64,000 bases of DNA, from assembly GCA_021234155.1 (NCBI GenBank), contig JAJEKV010000148.1, forward strand, positions 1,012,616-1,076,615, in the 5' to 3' direction. The notes beneath the pieces were generated by a model. That model saw nothing but the letters and a program-made list of their open reading frames with translations. It was not told the origin of the DNA and searched no databases. Made by a program: the position numbers and the translations under genes. Shown piece by piece: positions 665 through 19,355 of the stretch (position 1 is the stretch's first letter; every line of letters begins with the position of its first letter). The stretch is from Isoetes taiwanensis. Lineage: Eukaryota > Streptophyta > Lycopodiopsida > Isoetales > Isoetaceae.

Positions 665-3600
665 TCAATCTAATGCATCAAAGTTGGATCCATACTCATT
701 GATTTTCCATTTTTTTGCTATCTCTCTAACAACTTTCCACTCACTAGGCCCAGAAGATCTCTCAAACTTTGAATTGATTAAAGGATGTGATAGATTATCA
801 CCTGAGGTTTGTACCAATTTGCCCTTTCTTCGTCTTTCTCTCTGCTCCTGGTTTTCACTTGGATTAGGATCATGAGATGCCACCAATACTTGACCAGATT
901 CATAGTTTGGATCTTGCAATGATGTACCCATGTTATCTCCTTCCAACTCTTGTCCAGCTATTGGAGTGTTTTCCTGCACTTCATGGTCTTCTTGTTCAGT
1001 TGTTGGAATTTCTTGTTCAGCAGTTGGAATTTCCTCAAGTTTTTCATTCAAAGAGCTTTCTATACTATTTCCAGATCTGTTTGATATTGATCCAGAAGAA
1101 CTTGATGACGTGGATGCAGAGTTAGATGATAAAACTTCAAGATGTTCATCCCCTTTGGTCTTTGAAGATTCCCTTTGCAACAATTGGCTATGCGAATGTG
1201 TTGAACGGACTGGTGCAAATATCTGAAACAAACTTAGTCCTGAAAAAATGCTGACGATAGCCTCAATTGCCGTCTTTTGAGCCACTGACTCTGTGAATAC
1301 CAAAACTTCTCTACCCATAAGCAAAGCCTCTCTTGCGATGTTTCCACCACAGTTGACCTCTACTATTGTCTGGTTAGACTTTGACAAGCAGTTTATAAAA
1401 CGAAGGATAGCACTTCTTGAAATTGTATCCTTTACAATAGGACCAACTTGATCCCTGCCTATCATTGAGTAACTTAGTGGCCGCAAATATAAATCTTTAG
1501 AAGATGTTTCTGTCTTTGGAATGTCACGCGTGGGATCAAAAGACGGAATCTCATCATCATTTCGAAATTCCAAGGACAACGTTTCTTGTACAAGGTTATC
1601 CAAATTGCTTTTCCTTGATTTTGAAACAAGTGAAAGCACAACATATGTTTTCACGGATATTATACTCCCCTTATCTGTGCTTGACTCATGGCACCCGAAG
1701 GCCAATTGGACTTTCCCTTCTATCTTAGTAAGTACGGGAAAAAAACAGGAAAGAATATGATTCCTGCATACATAAAAGAATCAAACGTAAGAAAATAAAG
1801 AGAATAGAAAGAAGTTTCCAATCACTTTTACACAAAGCAATGAAAGAAGTTTAACTTCCAACATGTGTTGGAAGATAACAACATGGGAGGTGACAAATTG
1901 GTGACAAAGGCATGGCACACATGAATACAAAAAGTACTTTCAACACGTTTAACCTATGATATGTCATATGTTGGTAGTTACTCTACATGGAAGTTTCTAG
2001 CCAATGTGTTAAACTCATGGGAGTTACTAACATTATTAAACTAACACGTGTTGGAAGTTGGAAGGTACACTACGTAAGAGGCGGTCAAATGAAGCAATGC
2101 TAAAATTGAAGAGCACATGACTTATTATATGGTAGACTTCTAACACGTGTTAGAAGTTGCACTAGATGGGAGGCACTAGCATAATCCAATGTATACAAAT
2201 CTATATTTAACTTCCAACACATGTTGGAGGTATAGCCAAGAACATTCTAGTAAAGAAAATGAAAGCTTTAAAGTTTATTATAAATCTTTCAAATAAGAAA
2301 GCATTGATAATTACCTCAGCATTGATATCTGCTATTGAATCCAATAACATCTTGAAGTTCTCCCTTTGCCAACCACCATCCGTATGTGTAACAATTAAAC
2401 ATATGGATCTGTTGCTTTCAATATTTTTTATTTCATTAATTTTGCTGGCCCTCGATCCCACATCATAAACCATGACCACATTATGCTTCCTCCAATTTGA
2501 ATGTCCATGATCTTTATCCCACAAACTTTCTAATTGATAACTTGCCCATGCTGGAATTTGCGAGTTTGCTTGGCGACTGTTTAGTTGTGCTTTACACCAA
2601 CTTTCACAATAGCTTCTAAGCTCATTCCATGATGCACGAATACTTGGACTTTCATTCAATATCCTTTGAATTGTCAAACTAGAAAGGCGAGTGTATTTCC
2701 TTAAGTGTTGAACAATAGCTTCCTTCAATATCCTGTCATGCTTTAGGTTATCTGTAAACTCTTGAAAGCTAAGAACATTTGTTCCTTTTACCCAAGCAAC
2801 TTTCCCGTTAATTAGAGCATCTGCTATTTTTTCCATTTCATTGGGCTTCAATTGAATTGTGCAACGAAATAATGACATACAAATTTCCTTGCCACTTTTA
2901 GGCTCTCCAGGCAGCTTACCTTCATTAAACATCTCCATAGCTGTAATCCACTTATCAAAGATTTTTCTTTCCGATGTTATGAGATTGTGCATCTCATTTA
3001 CTGAACTTTTGCCAAAAGTGAGCTTCACGACTTCCTCATAATTCTGAAATAAAATATAAAACATTCAATAAATTAGATTGCAAGAAATCACTTCTAACGT
3101 GTGTTGGAAGTCGAGGGATTTTATTACAACCTTAAATTCCTCTGGAGTTGATTTTCCTTGTTCGGGCCTTGGCGGACAACCCATAATCTCCCATTGAGCC
3201 CTTGCTTGCTCTACTTTATCTTGGAATGGAGATACAAATCTATTTTTTTCATTTTTCAAGTTAGTTTGTGCAGATATTTCCATCAATTTTAACGTAGGAG
3301 TCTCATGTGAAAGAATTCGTACTGCACGCACTCCCCACTTTGCTTTAAACTCGTCACTTTCTTTTGAAAGCATCTGCATTGCCATCATTGAGTGCTGACC
3401 CGCAATGACAACAAATTTAATATTATCACTATACACTTCACTCAGATCTTTTATTTCAAGAGGTTTAAATGTCTGTGGATTGATTGGGAGTAAGTCAGCT
3501 GCCTCTGGAAGTATAGAAGGATGTTCCATCATTTGCCTTTTTAACCATTCCACATGCTTCCAATTTAACTTCCTATAGTTCCACTGAGCAAACTCTGGCT

Positions 3601-4503
3601 TACTTTTAATATCTGGAACTATACAATTCTCAACCCGTACCATCAAAGGATTGGTAAAACCAAAAACATAGTATCTTTGAAATTCAGATAAAGCTTCTTC
3701 TGTTGTTGGTACATGTTTCTTTCCCTTTCTCTTTTTGGATGGGCTTTCCAACACTTCCCTATCTATTTCATTAATAGCCCTCTTCTTCATTGACTTTTCT
3801 GGTACCATAGAAGCACTTTCTTTTTGATAAACAACAATCTGTTTATTCTTATCTGCCATCTGGTCAGAAGATTCGGCAACAACACCCTTTGTACTTTTGA
3901 TTCTTCTCCTTGGCCCACCATCCTTATCTGTTTTCCTCCCATCTTTTTCGTTCTCATCGTTTGTAACCTTCTTCGTACTTTTTCTTTTCTTCAAAAGATC
4001 TTCACAACTTATAGGACCTGGAGGAATTTTTTTATTGTATTTTGCATAAATTTTGGACCCTGTCTCTTCCTTTGAGAGTCTTGTGCAGACTATGGTCAGA
4101 GAATCTGTGATATCTGTGATGCTACAAATCCCAGCCCTCTCAGCATTTGTGTAATCTGGCAATTTCAATCCATATCGCCTACAACTTATATTCACATCAT
4201 CAGATTTTTTCATACAAGAGACGTCAAAATTATCGAAGGAGACAACAAACCCTTTAATACTTGCATCATTAACATCCTCAGTAACGGCTACAAGCATCGG
4301 ATTTCCATCTTCCCCAGGAACTTCATCAATTTTTAGCAAGATACCATATACATGTTGCTCATCATCTAGTAAACATATTTCATTGTAGGCAGTATATCCT
4401 TGTATGACCTCAAAACACCACCTTCGACCCAACAGATCTTTGCATTCTTGGTAATGCACAAGTTGCAAGTCCTCTAGAGATGAGGCTCTTGGTCTTTGCT
4501 CAC
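665..4503 (-). CDS. ParB-like plus degenerate methyltransferase-like protein, three visible exons
   Basis: Three minus-strand exons can be joined: about 4503-3131, 3045-2314 and about 1727-665. All boundaries carry GT/AG signals. An acceptor at 4504-4505 shows that at least one exon lies further upstream. Exon 1 has a variable N-terminal region, a Lys-rich linker, then a domain with VVIAGQHSMMAMQ (about residue 354 from the Met at 4468), which fits the G-x-H-x-x-x-A signature of ParB/sulfiredoxin-type folds. Exon 2 is helical and ends with VTHTDGGWQ at 2366-2392, where beta-class N4/N6 DNA methyltransferases have a DPPY-type motif. Exon 3 contains EVNCGGNIAREALLMGREV near 1300-1366, resembling the later F-x-G-x-G...A...GR motif I, followed by a Ser/Glu-rich tail. 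The order ParB, motif IV, motif I is that of prokaryotic ParB-methyltransferase fusions. The catalytic residues look lost, so a binding role is more likely than catalysis. The gene is seen; the family call is inference. Confidence 0.6.
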
Positions 4504-6395
4504 CTATATTAGTTCAACATGCACGCATTAGGGTCATAGACATTAGGCTTCAAGCATAACAATTGTAAGTTCATAATAAATATACTTACTTGATCACTTT
4601 ATGACTAGAGTAAGAACCTAGAGTAAGGACAAAAGCATAACACATATAAAGGCTACTAGCAATGAAGTAACTTCCAACACGTGTTAGATGTTACTTATTA
4701 AAAATAAAGATTGCAAGATGCACCACACACATAAAGGCTACTAAAGTAACTTCTAACACGTGTTGGAAGTTACCTCAGATTTGAAAAATAGGACCTTAAA
4801 ACCAAGGACAAAAGCACCACACACATAAAGGTTACTAAAGTAGCTTCTAATTGAGAATAAGGATTGGAAGATGCAAATTCTTAAGTCTACATGCTAAATG
4901 TTCGAATCTAAGATGGGGGTTTCTAGAAAACCACGGACAAAAGCAAAGGCCTATATGCTAGACTTCCAACATACGTTAGAAGTTGCACTAGAGGCGAGCA
5001 CTAGCAGTAGCCTAATGCTTTAGTGTTTTTGAATCTACACTAACAGACAAAAGCACAAAGGCCTATATGCTAGACTTCCAACGTGCGTTGGAAGTTGCAT
5101 TGGAAGTTGCACTAGACGCAAGTACTAGCACTAGCCTCATGCTTTAGTGTTTTTGAAGTTACACAAAAGCACGACTGGAAATATTGCAAAATAGGGATAA
5201 GCATGAGAATAGGCAAAAGCATGACACAGAGAAAGCCTACACATTAAAGTCCTACATAGGACTTTCTAGCCTACTTGATGGTACACCCATAGGAGCTATT
5301 AGAACTATTGAACTTCCAACACATGTTAGAAGTTACACTATATAGAATGTGGCAAGATAACGCATGCTAAAGTTGGAACCAATGTCTTATTATATGCTAG
5401 ACTTGTTAGTACATGACACTCGTGGTACCAACACAAAACTACAAAGTTTCAACATGTGTTGAAACAAAATATGACAACTTCTTGGAAAGTAGCACAAAAG
5501 CATGAAGGCTACTAGCACTGATATAACTTCCAACACGTGTTGGATGTTACTTAAGAATAAAGACTCGACGATGCAGATTCTTAAGCTTACATGCTAAAAT
5601 GTTGAAATCTACATTAGATGGTGGTTTCTAAAAAGCCAGGGATAAAAGTAAAGGCCTATATGCAAGACTTCCAACATGCGTTGGAAGTTGCATTAGAGGC
5701 GAGTACTATCACTAGTTCTACAAAAACACGGACAAAAGCAAAGGCCTATATGCTAAACTTCCAACATGGGTTGGAAGTTGCAACTAGAGGCAAAGCTAGC
5801 ACTAGCCTAATGCTTCAGTGTTTTTGAAGTTACACAAAAGCACTACACATGAAGCTACTAGAACTATTGAACTTCCAACACGTGTTGGAAGTTACACTAA
5901 AGCAGTAAAAAAATGATGCACAATAAGTCTAAGCCATGAGCAATGTAGTTTAACAAAAACTAAAAAAAGGGCATTTCTTGACTTCTAACTATATAATGCA
6001 CTAAATAAGGCCATGCATAAAAAAATCCATGAACTCTACATTGCGATCATGAAATCACTAGCAAAGCAACCTATACAACACTCATGAACCTTAATTTGCA
6101 TGAATGACCAGCAATAATATTTGAATTTTTTGTTCAACTATCATTTGCATGCAAGAAAAAAATGGAGCCAAATTCACTTCAGAATCAAATCAAAATTCAA
6201 TGCACATTCAAATCTAATTTAAGATAATACAGATACATCATCAAAGCAAACTCTAGCAAAAAAATCCAGTTTACAAAGCAAAAAATCAACTCTTGGACAC
6301 AAGAAGAAAATAGTTTCTTAAAGAAATTTAAAATTTCAATAAACAAGCCTACCTTTCTTTGGTGCCATAATAGTTCTCTTCTCAATAGCTGATGC

Positions 6396-6620
6396 TGAAA
6401 CTTGCTTGTTAAGAAAATAACTCAAATCTGTCCTTGTCCTTTTCCTGTTGCTGTTCTTGCTGTTCTGTTGAAACTTGCTTGTTAACAAAATGACTAAAAT
6501 CTGCCCTCTTGTTAACAAAATAACCCAAATCTGTCCTTTTCCTGTTGCTGTTCTATTGAAACTTGCTTGTTAACAAAATAACTCAAATCTGCCCTTTTCA
6601 TGTTGCTGTTCTGACGTTGC
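6396..6620. repeat. imperfect tandem repeat, 70-85 bp units
   Basis: About three units contain GAAACTTGCTTGTTAACAAA, AAATCTG(T/C)CC and CCTGTTGCTGTTCT. They lie in the non-coding spacer between the two divergent genes. Short open frames across them are repeat-derived and not convincing genes. Confidence 0.7.
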
Positions 6621-7529
6621 TTCCTATTACAATAGCTAAACCTGTACTCCTTTCTTGTTGCTGTAGGCGCTTCCACTCCCGTTGGTGCTTGAACAAACAA
6701 AAAAGGAAGGATAATAGCTGAATGTACGAACAAGCAAAAGGAAAGAAACAAAAATAGAATGCATGTATTTTAAGTCAGAAATAGCCACGTGTAATTTTTT
6801 TTGAATTTCAAATCACGGTTAGTTAGTCGGACGTTTGAGATATTTACATTAGGAAATTCAATGCAACAGAAACAGAAATCGTGCTACAGAGTTTAAAGAC
6901 TGATCAAAACCCAAGACCCCAAGGAATCGAACCTTGGCTGAGACCAATGGCACGTTAACTAACACCGATTCAAAATTATTCAGCTTAATTCTTGAAACAA
7001 GCATAATCTGTTCTTGAAGAAATCCCATTTTCTGTCCATTGCAATCTTGGTCCAGGACGTTCTTGGCTTCTTCAATATGGCTTTGACAACCACAAAAAGG
7101 CATATACGACATCCTGTGTGACGGATTAATGGATCTGCAGACTTACAGACTGGAAAACAACAAAATGCTAATGAAGGTATTTTTTCCTTACCTTACTGCT
7201 GCATCGCATCTGTTTCTGATCTGCATCAAGATAGACATCAAACAAAATAGATCGAAAAATCATCCGATTCTATCAACGCCTTCAATCAGCAAATGGATTC
7301 GAAATATCTCTGCCTTCATATCCGAAAAATCCCTGCCTTCAATCAGCAGATGGATCCGAAAGTAGATGTACCGAAAGCAGATGGATCGAAAGTTGGATCT
7401 GAAAGCAGAGAATCAGGAAAAGAATAGGAAAATTTACAGCTTCAAGCATAACGGCAAGAATCGAAAAGAACAAATCCGATGCCAAAAATGGATGATGCAA
7501 CCTTATTTCGGCGCCGCACCGCTCCTCTC

Positions 7530-7712
7530 TTGCAAACCCTAACATCTCTTTCTATTTAATTTTAGGGTTTCGATCTGTTTCTTTTACCTGACATCTGTTT
7601 CCATTTAATCTTAGGGTTTCGATCACCTTTTAGCTAACATCTGTTTCTCTTTAATCTTAGGGTTTCGATCACCTAATATCCGTTTCTATTTAATCTTAGG
7701 GTTTCGATCACT
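7530..7712. promoter_or_regulatory. telobox-bearing tandem repeat (TTAGGGTTTCGATC x4)
   Basis: Four units of about 45-50 bp each contain TTAGGGTTTCGATC preceded by (C/T)TTTAAT(C/T); an inverse AAACCCTAAC sits at 7535. AAACCCTAA-type teloboxes are established promoter motifs of plant housekeeping genes and are bound by telomere-repeat-binding proteins. Here they sit in the spacer from which the ParB-like gene (leftward) and the transposase (rightward) diverge, so a promoter or silencer role is plausible. Interstitial telomere-like repeat is an alternative, but the conserved CGATC flank argues against simple telomere sequence. Confidence 0.5.
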
Positions 7713-8334
7713 TTAGATTTTATCTAGACAAGATAGATATGCCTTATTTACCCTAAACATTCTAGTTTCACCACGATTTTATCTGCCAAATAATATTTTA
7801 AGATAGATAGATAGTTAATCGTAGAAAGAATAGTATTTTAAGTTGGGGTTTGCAATTATTGGAGTGGCCTTCATGGTATGGTATGTATGAAGTGCGTGAC
7901 CCTAAGACTTCTAACACGTGTTTGAGGTGCTTATATTAATGCATGCTTGAAATTTTTTTAATCCTCATTTATCGTATAACTTCCAATTTCTAAGACAGAA
8001 TAAATATGTTTGCAGTTTGCAGTTTTCTGGTGCCACCTTCAACGTATGTTTCAAGTGTGTTGACCCACCCAACTTCTAACACGTGTTTGAGGTGGCTTGA
8101 AATTTGTAACCAATGCAACTTCCAGTCTCTAAGAAGGAATAACATTTGGATCGAAGTGCGTGGACATACCCAACTTCTAACACGTGTTTGAGGTGTTTAT
8201 TTCATGCTTGAAGTGCCTAGTGTTTGGATCCACTAATAACTAGCATAAATAGGTGCATACATCCTAAATACATTCTGATGTTATGTTTTGGGTGTTGGTT
8301 CTTTCAGGCTGTGAGATCAAATTGCCGCACAAGA

Positions 8335-9306
8335 ATGGCTTGTCAGGTTAGGCAGATACAATAAGCCTTTTTTGTTTTTTTTTTTAAATCAAAACAATAT
8401 GTCTTCTCTTCTTTGTCAATTCTTCAAACTAAGGTGGCTCAAGGACAAGATTTTTTGTGCCATGATAAACTAACACCTCCAACACATGTTAGAGGTTAAA
8501 ATGCTAAAGATTCACATGCCTCATGTCTGTTCCGTATGGATGACAACATTTTCTGTTATAAGCTATTCAGTTCTTTACGCTTGTATTGTGCACATTCAAA
8601 ACATGTTTGTTATTCCTATAATAGTGTGAGGTGTTCGAATATTTATCTCGTCATGATAAGCACACGGTAATCTTAGGGACTGACAAACTTGTGTGTAGTG
8701 TAGTTTTTATGTTGGTATCCATGTTTTGTAAACATAGGTTTTCCATTATGGTTGGTTATTTAAATAATGTGATTGCAATAACTCATGTGTTTGCTAGATT
8801 CGTTATATTTTTAGTTTCTATGCATTTTATACTTGCTTAACAGTTCACCTCTTCTTCAGGAGACACTAAACCTTGCAGATGGGATGAATGTCATTTTGCT
8901 TGAAAATGATATTGAGGTGGCAAAAGGCACAATATTTACTGTTGATCCAGATAGATTTTGCCACAATGAAAGGTTGGGCGAGAACAATGTGAGCATATCC
9001 CTAGAGGATGTGTACAACAACCCAGGGTTAGCATGTTATGAATATTTGGTTGAGCATAAAGGTTCCTTTGTCAGATGGCCAAAGTGTGCACTAAAATTGC
9101 AGCAAGATAAGAAAGAGGATAGTCATTATAATCCAAAGGATGGATCCAAGTGTGCATTAAAATTGCAACAAGATAAGAAAGAGGATAGTCGTTTTAATCC
9201 AGAAGACCGATTCACTTGGCCAGGAAATAAAGTTATTCTGGTAGACAAGGACAATAATCATTTGGCGACAGCTTTTATTGTGGTGGCCTTTACAAATGAA
9301 GCCATT
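8335..9306 (+). pseudogene. 5' part of DUF7869-type transposase gene, split by an LTR
   Basis: A short first exon supplies ATGGCTTGTCAG (8335-8346) and a GT donor at 8347. An acceptor at 8858-8859 (CTTCTTCAG) starts the next exon at 8860, in frame to give MACQETLNLADG. The encoded region has NVILLENDIEVAKGTI, a conserved LG and VRWP. It then has a short near-duplicate of KCALKLQQDKKEDS (two copies, about 30 codons apart) and a second ITWP/ATAFIVV-like repeat. This pattern of paired strand-rich repeats ending in WP resembles the plant DUF8039 domain that precedes transposase-like regions. The frame is cut at 9306 by the solo LTR. Skipping the LTR and one target duplication rejoins position 9306 to 9898 in frame, so the gene was open before the insertion. 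Confidence 0.6.
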
Positions 9307-9897
9307 TGTTAGTCCTGTGCCTCCTGGTACAGGACTATTCATGCATACGACAGACCAGGTCAAGCTCAAGGATCCTCAGTCAACCACGGGTCAGACATCC
9401 AAGGCTCCGCAGAAGACTAAGCAGCAGAGCACGCAGTCAAAGCCTTTGGCTGTCAACAAGAGGCGCCGCTCAGACAAGTGACGGCCCGTCACCGCCTGCG
9501 TCAGCGTCAGCGTGATTCTAGGCACTTCAAGAGGCACCGCCAACATTCCTGCAAATCAGGCCTCCTCCCAGGAGTCGGCACCGAGATCAGTCAGAGTGTC
9601 TATATTGGGCCCAAGGCCATTGTACTATATATATGAGTAGAGTTAGCTCATAAGTTTTTAGATGAGTTTTGAGTCTTGTCTCTTTTCAGTTTTCTCTCTA
9701 TTGCGAGAGCTCATGTATTTTCATCATTGATATCAAGGAAGCTTATCATCTTTCTCTCATTTGCTCTGTTCTCTTCCTTTTCTTCTCTTTCAGCAAATCC
9801 CGCGTGACATAGTCCCCCGGACTCTCCTGTTAGATCCACGGGTCCTCACAGAGGGCTGTCTTCCAGGAGTTCCCGAACCCAGACCCCAAACACCATT
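9302..9897 (+). mobile_element. solo LTR with perfect 5-bp target duplication
   Basis: The LTR runs 9307-9892 (586 bp), begins TGTTAG and ends AAACA. It is flanked by identical CCATT at 9302-9306 and 9893-9897. A TATA-like run (CTATATATATGAG) lies near 9625, as expected for an LTR promoter. No internal retrotransposon sequence is present, so this is a solo LTR left by LTR-LTR recombination. Orientation is inferred from the TATA-like run. It breaks the transposase reading frame. The perfect duplication, and the intact frame on both sides, suggest a young insertion. Confidence 0.9.
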
Positions 9898-12543
9898 GAT
9901 GGTACCCGATTAGGTGAGGAAGATCTTGGAATTACAGTCACTGAGGTAGCTATTGACAACGACATGTTTGAGATTGGAAAGTTGATTAGATGGCCAATCA
10001 AACACTTGATATTAACAACTGGAGAGTCATTGGTCAAAGATAACTACTCTGTTGATGATTATCAACTTCAAGGAGATAAGTTCTATGAATTGGAAGGACT
10101 TCGTAGATATAAACGCATCTATCCCACCAGAAAGAGAAAAAGGATACAGAAAGAGAGAAAGAGACCTAAAGGTGATCCATGTGATATGGAAGTAGTTGCT
10201 AATGTTGCAACGATTGATTGTTGCCACCGGCAATGTTGCCAATTTGCAGATCGAAAAAAAGTTTTAGCAGCTCGTCAGGAATATCATTCACTCAAGTATG
10301 AAGATAAAGTGACATTCAGTTACGATAATTTTTCTGCTAGTATAAAGGATGAAAATGGGAACTACCAGGGTATGTTATTTGAAGGAAACATAGTTTGTTG
10401 CAAAGGTTGGTACACAATATATGGCGTGAAGAAAAGCACATTCTTTAGGAGAAGAAACGAGTGGTTGCATGGTGCAAAAAAAGGAATTCATGGTAACAAG
10501 TTAGTAAAGCGAAAAACAGAGAGAGTTGCGGCAGCCACGGTAGCACTTGGCCAGTTTATTGATATTACTGCCAACCAGATGCCTCATCGAAGTAGAACAA
10601 CTGCAGACGGGGAAAGAGATTGTCAAAAGGTCATGCCATCAACACATACTCTTAAATCAATGTTAAAGGAAGTGAATGACACACTCAGCATGCAAGGGCT
10701 TCCTCCTATTTCACAATCAAGTATTAGCAGATTATGGAATACAGAGTTCAAAGATGTCATTATTGCTCGTAATAGTGGTGACTTTTCAAAATGTGAAATA
10801 TGTACAGATTTGAAAAACAGATTATCATGTACAAAAAATCCACAAGAAAGGGTGAAGCTCTTAGAATTGATGGAGAAGCATAACTTTGAGCAAAAGAGTT
10901 GTCGTAATATTTACTACTCTTGGCGATACTTGTCTATCTTCCATCCGAAAGAGTATATATGTTTGATACATGATAAGATGGATCAAAAGAAAACATGCAT
11001 TCCTCGACTGAAGCCAAATCCAAATACAACGAAGAATGCTATGCAATTACCCATGGCTCTAGCAGGGATACTCACTCATGGGCATGGGCCTCACTCTTTT
11101 GGTCATTTTTCCACATGGAATTGGTCCTTTGATCCTAATTTTACTATTGGATCTATAGCCAAATGCTTGAGGAGTTTGGAAAGTTTTAAGGAAAATGATA
11201 GGGGAGATTTGACTCCAAAGTTCACCTCCACAACACAACCTCTTCATAAAGCATTGTTAACAAGAGCTAGTGGGCAAGTACTGCCAAGAAATGATGAAGC
11301 ATCTCAGTTTAAGCCTTTGCCTAAAGTCCTACTGCTACAGGTTGATAATTGTGTGTCAGAAAATAAAAATAGATATGTTTTGGCATATTTGGCATTGCTT
11401 GTGGCCAGAGGTCATTTTAAAGAAGTTAACATGGCATTTCTTATGGTTGGGCACACGCATGAAGATATTGATGCCTTTTTTAGCAAGTTCGGAGAAAGCT
11501 TAAGGAAAAATCATGCTCATACATTGCCCCAGTTATTTGAAATATTTGAGAAATGCTCTGAGTCTGCAAAAAATATTCCCCATCTAATGCAGGAAGTACC
11601 AGACTTCAAAACATTTTTACGTGGTTATATAGAAGATGGCCAGGAAAAGTTGGTTGGTCATACTAAGCCTTTGCATTTTCGGTTGTATATGGATGGGAAT
11701 GTTCCAAAGTTTCAGTACAAAGTTCATCCAAAGGAAACTAGTTGGAAGCCAAAAGAAGGACGTGAACTATTTAAAAAAGATAAAGATGGGCAAGTACTGC
11801 TGCCAATGGGGGAGCCAGAACCATTGCCTCTAGTCGAACGGATGAGAGAACATGATAACATTGTATCAGGCATTTCTAAATACTTAGACTTTTGGAAAAT
11901 TGGTCTGGGTCGTTTTGGACGAACTTCTAGTTATGATGACCTAATGAGACCTGTTATTGAATATTGGGAGAATGTTTTGAAAGAACTTAAACAAAGCCCT
12001 ATGAGATGCAACATGCTACATGAGGGGTTTTGGCCTCGTTCCCAATGGAACTCTGAAGAACCAAATGTTCAAGGAGTACAGGAAGAGGCGAACAAATTAG
12101 AAGAAGAAGAAGAAGAAGAAGAACATTATTGTGGTCCTGCTAGTGGTCGACCTAAGGAAGTTTTTAGGCCTGAGAAACATATTTCACAGGGAATGTTTCT
12201 TATTGTGAGGCCTGAGAATGTGAACGAGACACCTTTTTGGTTGGGTATAGCATTAACAAATTCACTAAAACACCCAGATGGGATTACAAAAGGTTTATAT
12301 GTTCATGTTCAGTGGTGGAAACCATTATGTCGAGGTGCGAAAACAATTCAAGCTCAATATCGTGAATGTTGGACCAAAAGGTGGAAATGCAATCCACAAG
12401 ATGCACAACAATGGTTGGATGTTATGTCAGTCATCCATTCTTGGAAACCCAAAAAGTCTGCTATGACAATGAAGTGCCTTCAGCAAATTCCAAAAAATAT
12501 AGTCAAAATTGCACAAGACCATCTTGAATTATGTAGTCATTGA
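9898..12543 (+). CDS. DUF7869-type transposase, main domain (RNase H-like fold inferred)
   Basis: An uninterrupted frame of 881 codons follows the LTR; the first internal Met is at 9964, and the numbers here count from it. A basic segment (RKRKRIQKERKRPK) and a Cys/His cluster (CCHRQCCQF) lie near residues 55-80. HDKMD lies at about 335-339, QVDNC at about 459-463 and VGHTHEDID at 495-503. These acidic/His motifs, with spacing typical of the DUF7869 group, are plausible RNase H-fold catalytic sites. A Glu run coded by a (GAA)n tract lies near 713-722. A C-terminal domain from about 740 to 850 contains GMFLIVRP, FWLGIAL and W-rich segments (VQWWKP, ECWTKRW), and this domain recurs at 22906-23361. 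With the 5' part, the uninterrupted product would have been about 1034 residues. It is transcribed away from the ParB-like gene across a palindrome-filled spacer. The family name is from memory; the motifs are seen. Confidence 0.75.
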   Translation, partial: DGTRLGEEDLGITVTEVAIDNDMFEIGKLIRWPIKHLILTTGESLVKDNYSVDDYQLQGDKFYELEGLRRYKRIYPTRKRKRIQKERKRPKGDPCDMEVVANVATIDCCHRQCCQFADRKKVLAARQEYHSLKYEDKVTFSYDNFSASIKDENGNYQGMLFEGNIVCCKGWYTIYGVKKSTFFRRRNEWLHGAKKGIHGNKLVKRKTERVAAATVALGQFIDITANQMPHRSRTTADGERDCQKVMPSTHTLKSMLKEVNDTLSMQGLPPISQSSISRLWNTEFKDVIIARNSGDFSKCEICTDLKNRLSCTKNPQERVKLLELMEKHNFEQKSCRNIYYSWRYLSIFHPKEYICLIHDKMDQKKTCIPRLKPNPNTTKNAMQLPMALAGILTHGHGPHSFGHFSTWNWSFDPNFTIGSIAKCLRSLESFKENDRGDLTPKFTSTTQPLHKALLTRASGQVLPRNDEASQFKPLPKVLLLQVDNCVSENKNRYVLAYLALLVARGHFKEVNMAFLMVGHTHEDIDAFFSKFGESLRKNHAHTLPQLFEIFEKCSESAKNIPHLMQEVPDFKTFLRGYIEDGQEKLVGHTKPLHFRLYMDGNVPKFQYKVHPKETSWKPKEGRELFKKDKDGQVLLPMGEPEPLPLVERMREHDNIVSGISKYLDFWKIGLGRFGRTSSYDDLMRPVIEYWENVLKELKQSPMRCNMLHEGFWPRSQWNSEEPNVQGVQEEANKLEEEEEEEEHYCGPASGRPKEVFRPEKHISQGMFLIVRPENVNETPFWLGIALTNSLKHPDGITKGLYVHVQWWKPLCRGAKTIQAQYRECWTKRWKCNPQDAQQWLDVMSVIHSWKPKKSAMTMKCLQQIPKNIVKIAQDHLELCSH

Positions 12544-12779
12544 TGGGTTCAATGTAAGCTCATGCGCAATAATGCAATAGCATGTGTCATGTTCACTTTC
12601 AAAGGATTTTGTTTATTTTTGTGAGCATAATAAGTTAATCTTCATATTCATTATGTGTTTGCCATATTTTGCTCCAACTTTTCTAAATTGAAAATAGAAA
12701 TAGAGCCACATGTTGGAATATTATAGTTTCAAAATGTTGAATAAGTCCCACTTTTCTTGAATATGTGATAATTGGAAGA
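12544..12779 (+). other. 3' flank of the transposase gene
   Basis: AT-rich sequence without an open frame. It holds a half-site of the first palindrome near 12708 (CACATGTTGGAA) and probably contains the 3' untranslated region and element end, but no terminal inverted repeat is recognisable because the left end is outside the window. Confidence 0.4.
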
Positions 12780-14763
12780 ATGGCTTGATCATCATGGTGG
12801 CGGAGGCCCACATTTAGCACACTATATCATCAGGCAACTTATGTATGCTGATGATGTTTCACTTATTGCACATACTGCTATTAGTATGCAACAACATTTA
12901 CATGCTTTGTATAGTTTTTGTGAGAACATAGGCCTACATGTTAATCTCTAAAAGACTAAGCTCTGGGTAGTTCAGTCTCCTTTAAGAACACACTTTGGAA
13001 ACAGTGTATTACCAAGCGTGTGACTGTTGGCTGGAGAGCATTCTATGCAATGCAAAACAATTGTTTTTCGAGCAGAGATTTAGGTTTGGTCACGGAAAGC
13101 CCACTTGTTTTGGGCTTTGCTAGAACATGTTTTACTGTACGGTTCTGAAGTATGCAGGGATAGGTTCAATACGCTGTACGTTTTATACGGAATACGTATG
13201 AATTGTATGATACGGCACAAATTTGTCGGTATAAAATAAAAAATGACAAAAAACAATTCCGGCGTCGAAGATTTTCGCGACGCCGAAAAACAACTATATC
13301 GCAGACGCTGAAAAATTTCGCGACGCACGCCGAAACCTTCGTGACCGCAGCGTCGCGAAAACAAAGGGCCACCGGCAGACGCCGAAAACAACGCCACAAC
13401 AGACGCGGACTTTTTTTCGTCAGACGCGATTTAGTTTGTTTTCACACACGCAAAATCTTCCGACGCCGAATTGTTATTTGGCCGTATTTTTTGCCGTATT
13501 TTTTTCGAACATCATATTGCTTTACAGACGCTGAATGACCGGATAGCCGATGAAAAAAAATTTTCGCAGACGCTATCATCGAACTTTTCGCGCAGCACGC
13601 CGAATGTCGCCCGCCCTTTCAAGGCCGATTCTTTCTATTTCGACACGAAAAATTTCAGCAGACGCCATCGAAGGTTTTCGTCGCGAAGATTTTTTTTTCC
13701 GGCCGGCGAGGTATTTATACGTTAAATACGTATTTTATTAAAAAATACGTATTTTTTAACTTTATACGTCAGAAATTTTAATTTTGTACGTATAGAACCT
13801 ATCCCTGGAAGTATGGGGGCTTGCCATTAGTACTACTGCTTGGGAGAGCTTGGAACATGTGCAAAAACCCTTTCTCACTTACAACCTAGGAGTCAAAACT
13901 ACGATCCCTTATGCTATTCCTTTACGAGAGACAGTTTTTTGGCCTCTTCAATATTCTGCCATGAAGCGCCATCTCCACTATATCAGCAAGGTGCATCACA
14001 TGGATGATGATAGGTACCCTCTTCTCGCACTTCCCATGGTTGAATCTCCCCAGCGTTTGAAATGATGTTGGAACGAGAATTGTAATGCATGGTTTGCCCA
14101 CTGGTCTGTGCAACCGGAACAGTGCATGGTGCTTGCTAGTTCTGATCCTGAGCTTTTGCAATAATATCTCGATGGTCGTTTTTCTCAGAAGATGTGGGAT
14201 ACAATTACCTTAGTGCAAGTTAAAACTGGTCATTATCATGCACGTATAAATCCCACTTTACCAGGACCGCAATCTTATTTGCTTGCTTCTTTGTCCATGA
14301 AAAAGCTTGTAGATTTTGCATCAATTCACACAGGGTCCCACAAGCTATGGATTGAGACAAGTAGATGGGAGCCGCCACAATTTCCACGAGAAGCGAGATT
14401 GTGTACATGTTGCTAGTTATAGGTTATTAAAGATGAAAACCATACTCTGCTAAGATGTCCCGCTTTTGAGATGGCTAGGAATCATTATTTGACTTTAACA
14501 TTCCATTCCACGCTTTCACAACTTCTCAAGCAGATGAGCGTCTTTAATTATTGAACCCTCAGTAATCATCATTGCCTACCTATATTTTCTTCTTACTTGT
14601 CTAGTATCATCATTACTGCAAACGTTTTCCCCTTGAAGATCTTTCAAGGCAGGGGTATTTTAATCCTAGTAGTAATCGTTGTACTAGGCTATTGTATGGG
14701 TCCCATGGCCTCTTGGTCTTCATGAACGTTAAAAAATCTACTCTATTCTATTCTATTCTATTC
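12780..14763 (+). mobile_element. decayed LINE (non-LTR retrotransposon) with (TCTAT)n tail
   Basis: Translation gives RQLMYADDVSLIAHTAISM, with the YADD reverse-transcriptase active site at 12844-12855 and IGLHVN shortly after. Beyond the MITE the frame resumes with LYG-EVWG, TTAWE-LEHVQKPFLTYNLG and YSAMKRHLHYISKVHHM (13820-14065), which fits the segment downstream of the RT in plant LINEs. A Cys-rich remnant (RLCTCC) occurs near 14395. Stops and frameshifts are frequent, for example directly after HVNL. The element ends in a microsatellite tail (CTATT repeated) at about 14738-14763 rather than plain poly(A). It is truncated at the 5' side and split by the hAT-type MITE at 13155-13807. Confidence 0.8.
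13147..13815. mobile_element. hAT-type MITE, 653 bp, 8-bp target duplication
   Basis: The element runs 13155-13807 with terminal inverted repeats CAGGGATAGGTTC / GAACCTATCCCTG. It is flanked by GAAGTATG at 13147-13154 and 13808-13815. An 8-bp duplication and CAGGG ends are hallmarks of the hAT superfamily. The interior is rich in CpG and in GACGC(C/T)GAAAA-like motifs in both orientations, with ATACGTATTT-type motifs near the right end. The open frames inside, on both strands, follow from this skewed repeat composition and show no domain. It sits within the LINE and is therefore younger than it. Confidence 0.92.
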
Positions 14764-15261: not shown

Positions 15262-15528
15262 AGAGTGCAAAAATTACAGTTAAGAACATATCCATCGACA
15301 CTTAGAGAAACATCACAGTGCAGAAATTACAGTTAAGAACATATCCATCAACACTTAGAGAAACATGACAATGCAGAAATTACTGTTAAGAATATATCCA
15401 TCGACACGTAGAGAAACATGGCAGTGCAGAAATTACCGTTAAGAACATATCCATCGACACTTAGAAAAACATGACAGTGCAGAAATTACAGTTAAGAACA
15501 TATCCATCGACACTTAGAGACATGAGCA
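15262..15528. repeat. 53-bp tandem repeat, five copies
   Basis: Five head-to-tail units of 53 bp, each with GCAGAAATTACAGTTAAGAA and CATATCCATCGACACTTAGA. Spacing was measured from the GTGCA motif at 15265 and 15318. Units differ by a few substitutions. Confidence 0.9.
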
Positions 15529-15563
15529 ATGTATGAGCTCGATAAATTTATATACAATATTAA

Positions 15564-18784: not shown

Positions 18785-19355
18785 TCTCTTAAGGGGAAAG
18801 GGTAAATGAAAAGGGGGAAAAGGAAAAGAGAAGTGGAAAGAGAGAATGTGAAGGGCAAAAAGGCATGGGGAAAAGGGTGGGGATAAGAGAAGAGAAAAAG
18901 GCATGGAAAACGAAAAAAGGAAAGGGTGGGAAAAGGAGGAAAAGGAAGCACGGGAAAAATAAAAAGAAGAAAAGGGTGGGAAAAAGGGCATGGGAAAAGG
19001 GAAATAGAAAAGAAAAAAGAATGGAAAAGGGGGGAAAGAGAGAGAGGCACGGGAAAAAGGAAATGAGGAAAATGGAAAAGAGGAAGAGAAAAAAGGAACA
19101 TGGAAAAGGGAAAGAGGAAAAGGGTGAGGAGATGGAAAAAGGGAAGGTAAAAAAGGCATGGAAAACGGGAGGGAGAAAAGAAAAATGGAAGGAAAAAAGG
19201 CACACAAAAAAAGGAGGAAAAGAGTGGGAAAAGGAGGAAAAGGGAAGGGAAAATAGGCATGGAAAAAGGGCGAAAGAGAAAAAGGTTGAGAAAAAGGAAA
19301 GACATGGAAAAAGGGTGGGGAAAAGAGAAGGCATAAAAAAAGAGAAATATGTAGC
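18785..19355. repeat. purine-rich low-complexity tract
   Basis: About 570 bp of near-pure purine on the plus strand made of degenerate GGAAAAGGGAAA and AAAAAGGCATGG units. The open frames through it on either strand (Lys/Gly-rich or Phe/Pro/Ser-rich) are products of the composition. A related tract lies at 20705-20915 in the same Helitron. Long one-strand purine runs can adopt triplex structures. Confidence 0.85.

Follow-up and report, generated by a model that had tools for sequence, protein, structure and literature searches.

Gene content of the locus

The stretch of Isoetes taiwanensis DNA analyzed here (64,000 nucleotides, hereafter the window) contains all but the first 1,162 bp of a 13,931-bp transposon that ends at window position 12769. 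Two divergently transcribed genes lie within it, as originally predicted, gene 1 on the minus strand at 665–6368 and gene 2 on the plus strand at 8335–12543. The left end of the element and a third gene, most of which falls outside the window, had been missed by the original prediction.

Gene 1 had been described as a three-exon gene, but four exons fit best, and this model encodes 1058 amino acids. Exon 1 (6353–6368, ATGGCACCAAAGAAAG, reading MAPKK) was placed by splice sites and frame, and exon 2 (3131–4503), which encodes an N-terminal domain, a basic linker and a ParB-like region with IAGQHSMMAM, was placed by the gene model and alignments. Exon 3 (2315–3043; gene model and alignment, ω of 0.09–0.31 in five pairs) includes the proposed DPPY-like motif HTDGGW, and exon 4 (665–1723; ω of 0.25–0.36 in four copy pairs) includes the proposed methyltransferase motif I region NCGGN...GR followed by a variable C-terminal tail. 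Introns 1, 2 and 3 occupy 4504–6352, 3044–3130 and 1724–2314, respectively. The ParB-type motif that had been placed in this gene is present at that position as IAGQHSMxAM, a stretch that is invariant across the four aligned copies; in copies that are more broken, it reads GQYSMRVM once and is interrupted by a stop twice. Across 14 exon comparisons, a set that leaves out two comparisons between lineages A and B, Nei-Gojobori ω ranges from 0.09 to 0.40. Downstream of gene 1, a tandem duplication of ~70 bp lies at 375–505, where many other copies align as two blocks with a break at query position 435/436.

Gene 2 begins with a putative 12-nt exon encoding MACQ (8335–8346) and continues, in the gene model, with a coding part at 8860–9306 and a second coding part at 9898–12543 that contains the DUF7869 domain (Pfam E 2.9e-47) and the motif GHTHEDIDAFF. 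The predicted length of ~1034 residues is recovered as exactly 1034 amino acids, but only when a 586-bp insert at 9307–9892 (plus strand) is omitted. This insert starts with TG, ends with CA and is flanked on both sides by CCATT, and the best 40 of 4,121 candidates for it genome-wide (window copy included) are 97–100% identical. It is therefore a recent solo LTR, whose insertion has broken gene 2 in this copy. Two of three copy pairs gave ω values of 0.10 and 0.18, with the third pair saturated. We infer that gene 2 encodes the transposase; the literature search found no paper with the term 'DUF7869'.

Gene 3, an open frame of 325 codons on the minus strand, separates gene 1 from the left end of the element. 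Its start lies at 1–346 of the window (the upper limit is approximate), and the remainder extends left of the window to position 1011987 of the contig (C961:1011987). The frame is FCP1/NIF-like (HAD), and Pfam NIF matches it with E 4.6e-21 in the window element and E 4.6e-20 in the element on C1043. The FCP1/NIF catalytic motif is DxDx(T/V), and in the three copies that cover this position it reads DMNGV, that is, DxN and not DxD. Multi-copy NIF-like frames with 29–36% identity to gene 3 were also seen elsewhere (C623:438984-439574, C919:4064385-4064942 and others), and those low-identity frames that were read (L263, L264) have DVN where DxD is expected. For gene 3, ω is 0.15–0.30 in four of six pairs, with two saturated. 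Judged from these coding sequences, copies of all three genes carry signs of purifying selection, and because the Nei-Gojobori values were calculated on copies that partly hold stops, they describe past selection.

Ends of the element and linkage of its genes

The terminal inverted repeats of the window element are 29 bp long and identical at both ends (ATCACATATTCAAGAAAAGTGGGACTTAT), the left one at C961:1011454-1011482 and the right one at window positions 12741–12769 on the minus strand. Both ends are flanked by the 4-bp sequence AATT, the right copy of which lies at 12770–12773. The element is inserted in a repeat that by eye resembles a LINE (a YADD reverse-transcriptase motif is visible in the right flank), and three other copies of this host repeat (L027, L028 and L029) contain the exact empty site, uninterrupted and with a single AATT. 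A fourth copy (L030) differs by four bases at the insertion site, and a copy on C279 that matches both flanks lacks six bases there, so neither was counted as an exact empty site. All five elements for which both ends were located have a 4-bp duplication, namely AATT (C961), AAGT (C179), AAAA (C1043), ATAT (C1034) and ATAT (C996). The left end was not found for C941, C1071 and C67 in the sequence pieces searched, and C1080 has an altered right end.

Within the genome searched (1.66 Gb in 1,110 contigs), matches to the terminal pattern with two mismatches or fewer number 1,618 (775 + 843), versus none for the reversed pattern. Five adjacent pairs of opposite ends were read among the matches listed, and all five proved to be elements of 695–815 bp that keep the terminal repeats at both ends, with a 4-bp duplication in only two of the five. 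These short relatives (L255–L259) are non-autonomous, their terminal repeats are closely similar, and the palindromes described below are absent from all five. To the right of the window element, within the host repeat, positions 13157–13807 are bounded by inverted sequences (AGGGATAGGTTC...GAACCTATCCCT), and AGGGATAGGTTCAATAC also adjoins the short element in L256. Short tandem repeats of ~60 bp together with a long G/A-rich stretch were noted by eye at 15280–15530 and 18790–19340. The Rfam search of the window gave no match above threshold.

Protein searches scored 43 of 3,026 candidates for gene 1, 44 of 15,410 for gene 2 and 118 of 3,474 for gene 3, and the hits used cluster into at least 35, 38 and 71 loci, respectively; because these are the scored subset of the candidates, the locus counts are lower bounds. 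Gene 2 was found within 20 kb of 12 of the 35 scored gene-1 loci, in divergent orientation at all 12, where 0.03 chance pairs are expected. Gene 3 lies within the same distance of 24 of the 35, downstream and on the same strand in every case, against 0.06 chance pairs expected. A scored gene-2 neighbor is missing from 23 of the 35 loci and a scored gene-3 neighbor from 11, and at 19 of the 38 scored gene-2 loci a copy of gene 1 or gene 3 lies no more than 20 kb away. Many gene-1 and gene-2 copies are fragments with stops. The same three genes occur together also in a lineage whose gene 1 is only 36–45% identical by exon. Chance proximity or nesting of the genes is ruled out by this linkage of copies. 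That genes 1 and 2 belong to one transposon, the central claim of the original prediction, is thus strongly supported by the ends, the duplication, the empty site and the linkage, and the survey of linked loci and their ends that it had proposed came out in its favor.

Ancestry of gene 1 and affiliation of the element

What kind of protein does gene 1 encode? The original prediction was that it is a recruited DNA-binding protein with a ParB-type domain and a catalytically dead methyltransferase. DPPY is the catalytic motif of N6/N4 DNA methyltransferases, and methyltransferase motif I is usually FxGxG. At the proposed DPPY position, the gene-1 copies read HTDGGW, HTDGDW, HTQEGW or HTQGGW, and the motif I position reads NCGGN. 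No Pfam family matched the gene-1 protein, the PDB matches of gene-1 profiles included neither a ParB nor a methyltransferase chain, and the PF02195 profile did not match gene 1, its one sub-threshold match across the genome lying elsewhere. HMMs of Spo0J-type, YbdM and YhdJ proteins scored gene-1 sequences no higher than shuffled sequences, and hhalign of gene 1 against two ParB profiles gave no support. ParB-like PHROG families matched weakly, with E 0.065–0.23 in single members, and one gene-1 copy of four gave E 0.015 across the IAGQHS residues. Among 12 hhalign pairings, the best (E 0.013) was that of NCGGN...GR with the YhdJ profile, in which 36 columns align in the register expected for motif I of YhdJ relatives; shuffled templates scored as high in 4 of 60 cases with the domain query, whereas with the longer query none of the 60 did. 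Single-sequence AlphaFold2 models were poor for both the ParB-like part (mean pLDDT 39) and the methyltransferase part (pLDDT 31). Over the exon 4 region, matches were obtained to an NCBIfam DnaB-loader model (E 0.009) and to a DnaB chain in the PDB (E 0.12). Searches of viral contigs found no relatives of gene 1 or gene 2 and no match to a ParB query, and a phage protein search with the gene-1 ParB-like domain returned three weak records, none annotated as ParB. The predicted role is plausible; the DPPY-like motif is not conserved, yet the exons show purifying selection. The ParB and methyltransferase folds, unconfirmed by Pfam, PDB and PF02195, are plausible but unproven.

The strongest support for a ParB-methyltransferase ancestry is external. 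The Ectocarpus element Sola1-1_Ec32 is described as carrying, on the strand opposite its transposase, a gene for a protein of ~1,100 amino acids with a ParB-like domain and an N4/N6 DNA methyltransferase, and the same report cites similar proteins from transposons of green and red algae (PMC12477816). Elements of this kind are therefore already known, and the original claim that no parallel had been described was overstated. Like Sola1-1_Ec32, the window element is a large DNA transposon with a gene of the ~1,100-amino-acid class opposite the transposase, although, as far as published descriptions can be compared, it measures 13.9 kb versus 21.5 kb (PMC12477816) and differs in its decayed methyltransferase motifs. 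The FCP1/NIF-like third gene and the palindrome arrays are present here, and no mention of either was found for Sola1-1_Ec32 in the available text of that report (PMC12477816). Our literature search found this gene set in no other paper, and the decayed methyltransferase motifs, the third gene and the palindrome arrays look new within the literature searched.

Sola elements are reported to have DDD transposases and 4-bp target duplications (PMC10741241). The duplication in all five complete elements has this length, and the 29-bp terminal repeats fall within the reported Sola range of 11–1124 bp. Since its layout, the size of its accessory protein and its duplication all agree, the element probably belongs to the Sola superfamily. 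A modification-type gene beside a transposase is likewise reported for fungal DNA transposons that carry TET/JBP genes, in which both the protein and the host group differ from those considered here (PMC12730594).

Palindrome arrays and the proposed role of gene 1

The two genes share one palindrome family, TTCCAAC-N4-GTTGGAA, as originally noted. The window contains 15 sites (30 strand matches with three mismatches or fewer, versus 0.01 expected), and none in its last 51 kb. Ten sites with two mismatches or fewer form an array in intron 1 of gene 1; one site lies in intron 2 (3092) and three lie in intron 3 (1856, 2138 and 2212). A stricter count of the window copy gives 14 sites, all of them intronic, with nine, one and three in these introns and one in the putative first intron of gene 2 (8477–8494). 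Three looser palindromes lie between the starts of the two genes (7908-7927, 8073-8092 and 8174-8193). Imperfect palindromes of all kinds number 44 in the element versus 26.5 in shuffles and 105 versus 83 in the rest of the window; because this general excess is mild, our argument is confined to the TTCCAAC-N4-GTTGGAA family.

Arrays of these sites recur in the other gene-bearing stretches, with 18 sites in C1043 and 15 in C1080, mostly upstream of gene-1 exon 2, and with 19 in C941, 17 in C996, 10 in C67 and 3 in C1071 in the stretches examined. In the C1034 lineage, 25 of 27 sites have the half-site CTCCAAC. Seven of the eight stretches thus have 10–27 sites and the eighth has three. The commonest centers differ by lineage (ACGT or ACAT; CCAT; TTGT; ATAT or ATAC), and a central pyrimidine-purine step is present in 116 of 123 sites and in 13 of 16 distinct centers. 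Between the window intron and aligned copies, 9 of 96 half-site positions differ, compared with 7 of 24 center positions and 216 of 1,205 others; the difference between half-sites and the rest (Fisher p 0.035) suggests weak constraint, on 96 aligned positions from sites that are not independent within an array. Genome-wide, the family has 810 sites versus 10 for a reversed control, with the central pyrimidine-purine step in 47 of the first 50 listed, and the CTCCAAC form has 529 versus 3. Isolated sites in L265–L270 (C13, C22, C2, C24, C127 and C148) fall in copies, 77–90% alike, of one unrelated dispersed repeat, and the figure of 810 therefore includes sites outside the elements. Each of these six copies has a perfect 22-bp lineage-A palindrome once, except that L268 has it twice.

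What would such arrays do in a transposon? VANDALs are Mutator-type elements. In Arabidopsis, the targets of their VANC proteins lie in introns and intergenic parts, vary from one related element to another and serve as binding sites for a protein that the element itself encodes (PMC5735166, PMC10398659). In VANC-type anti-silencing, the accessory protein recognizes its motif and strips the DNA of methylation. The present element resembles them in having arrays of a short motif in its non-coding parts, in forms that differ by lineage. The motif itself is different, an inverted repeat with a 4-bp center here and a 9-mer arrayed in one orientation in VANC21 (PMC5735166). The 4-bp duplication also sets it apart from VANDALs, since Mutator-type duplications are 7–12 bp (PMC10741241).

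The position of the sites in introns and at the transposase gene start, together with their lineage-specific forms, reproduces the layout of VANC targets, and this analogy leads us to infer that the gene-1 protein is what binds these sites and that it controls or de-silences the element. The explanation that we favor, and consider somewhat better than evenly balanced, is a Sola-like transposon moved by the DUF7869 protein of gene 2, in which gene 1 would encode an accessory relative of the ParB-methyltransferase proteins that algal transposons carry. Its methyltransferase chemistry would have been lost in this genome and the protein retained as a sequence-specific binder, the targets of which would be TTCCAAC-N4-GTTGGAA, or CTCCAAC in one lineage, within the introns of gene 1 itself and near where the transposase gene begins. 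Such binding would control the element's own genes or shield them from silencing, would be dispensable in cis for the short relatives, and gene 3 would be a further, FCP1/NIF-like accessory gene. The ends, the duplication, the linkage, the marks of selection on all three genes and the arrays with their forms specific to each lineage are observed; the transposase role of gene 2, the binding by gene 1, its effect and the ParB-methyltransferase ancestry are the presumptive parts of this model.

Could a host protein bind the palindromes instead? A host transcription factor whose sites the element borrowed for its promoter or introns is an unlikely alternative. The lineage-A center reads CACGTG, which resembles a G-box, and ACGT is the commonest center in C961, in C996 and among the first 50 listed genomic sites. 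The isolated palindromes of the unrelated repeat family speak against our favored explanation. Against a host factor, other lineages mainly have CCAT, TTGT or ATAT centers and no G-box, while the CCAAC...GTTGG core is kept. The most far-reaching version of our own explanation, slightly less likely than a host factor, is that gene 1 is a ParB-type clamp with a retired fused methyltransferase, acting in a eukaryotic nucleus, which would load at the intronic arrays as at parS, spread along the element, and prevent silencing or hold copies together. Were this true, sequence-specific anti-silencing would have been invented twice, with the site and its protein evolving together in each lineage.

Two further readings are improbable. 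Gene 1 might still be an active N4/N6 methyltransferase that its ParB-like part directs to the DNA of the element in order to mark it, a role already proposed for the algal proteins; Ectocarpus Sola1 has the same architecture (PMC12477816), and the alignment with YhdJ motif I agrees with it. However, the variation of the catalytic motif among DGGW, DGDW, QEGW and QGGW, the NCGGN at motif I and the shuffled templates that equal the domain-query score argue against activity. To a similarly small degree, the palindromes could act within gene-1 introns as RNA hairpins, with a stem of 7–9 bp and a loop of four bases, for which the wholly intronic strict sites and the change of half-sites on both sides between lineages would speak. 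The space between the two genes also has looser sites, however, and the pyrimidine-purine center is explained by a bent DNA site and not by a free loop. That the palindromes are transposase binding sites required in cis for transposition is very improbable: some lie at the transposase gene start and all eight gene-bearing stretches have them, but those of the window copy occupy internal positions, either intronic or intergenic, and the five short relatives with such ends lack them, so they seem unnecessary in cis.

The purpose of ParB-methyltransferase genes in algal transposons is described as unsettled (PMC12477816). If gene 1 binds as we propose, the combination of decayed enzyme motifs, a protein under selection and a matched site in each lineage examined suggests that the binding role of these proteins is separable from their modifying role, and the palindrome would supply an exact probe sequence for the function of this class of accessory protein.
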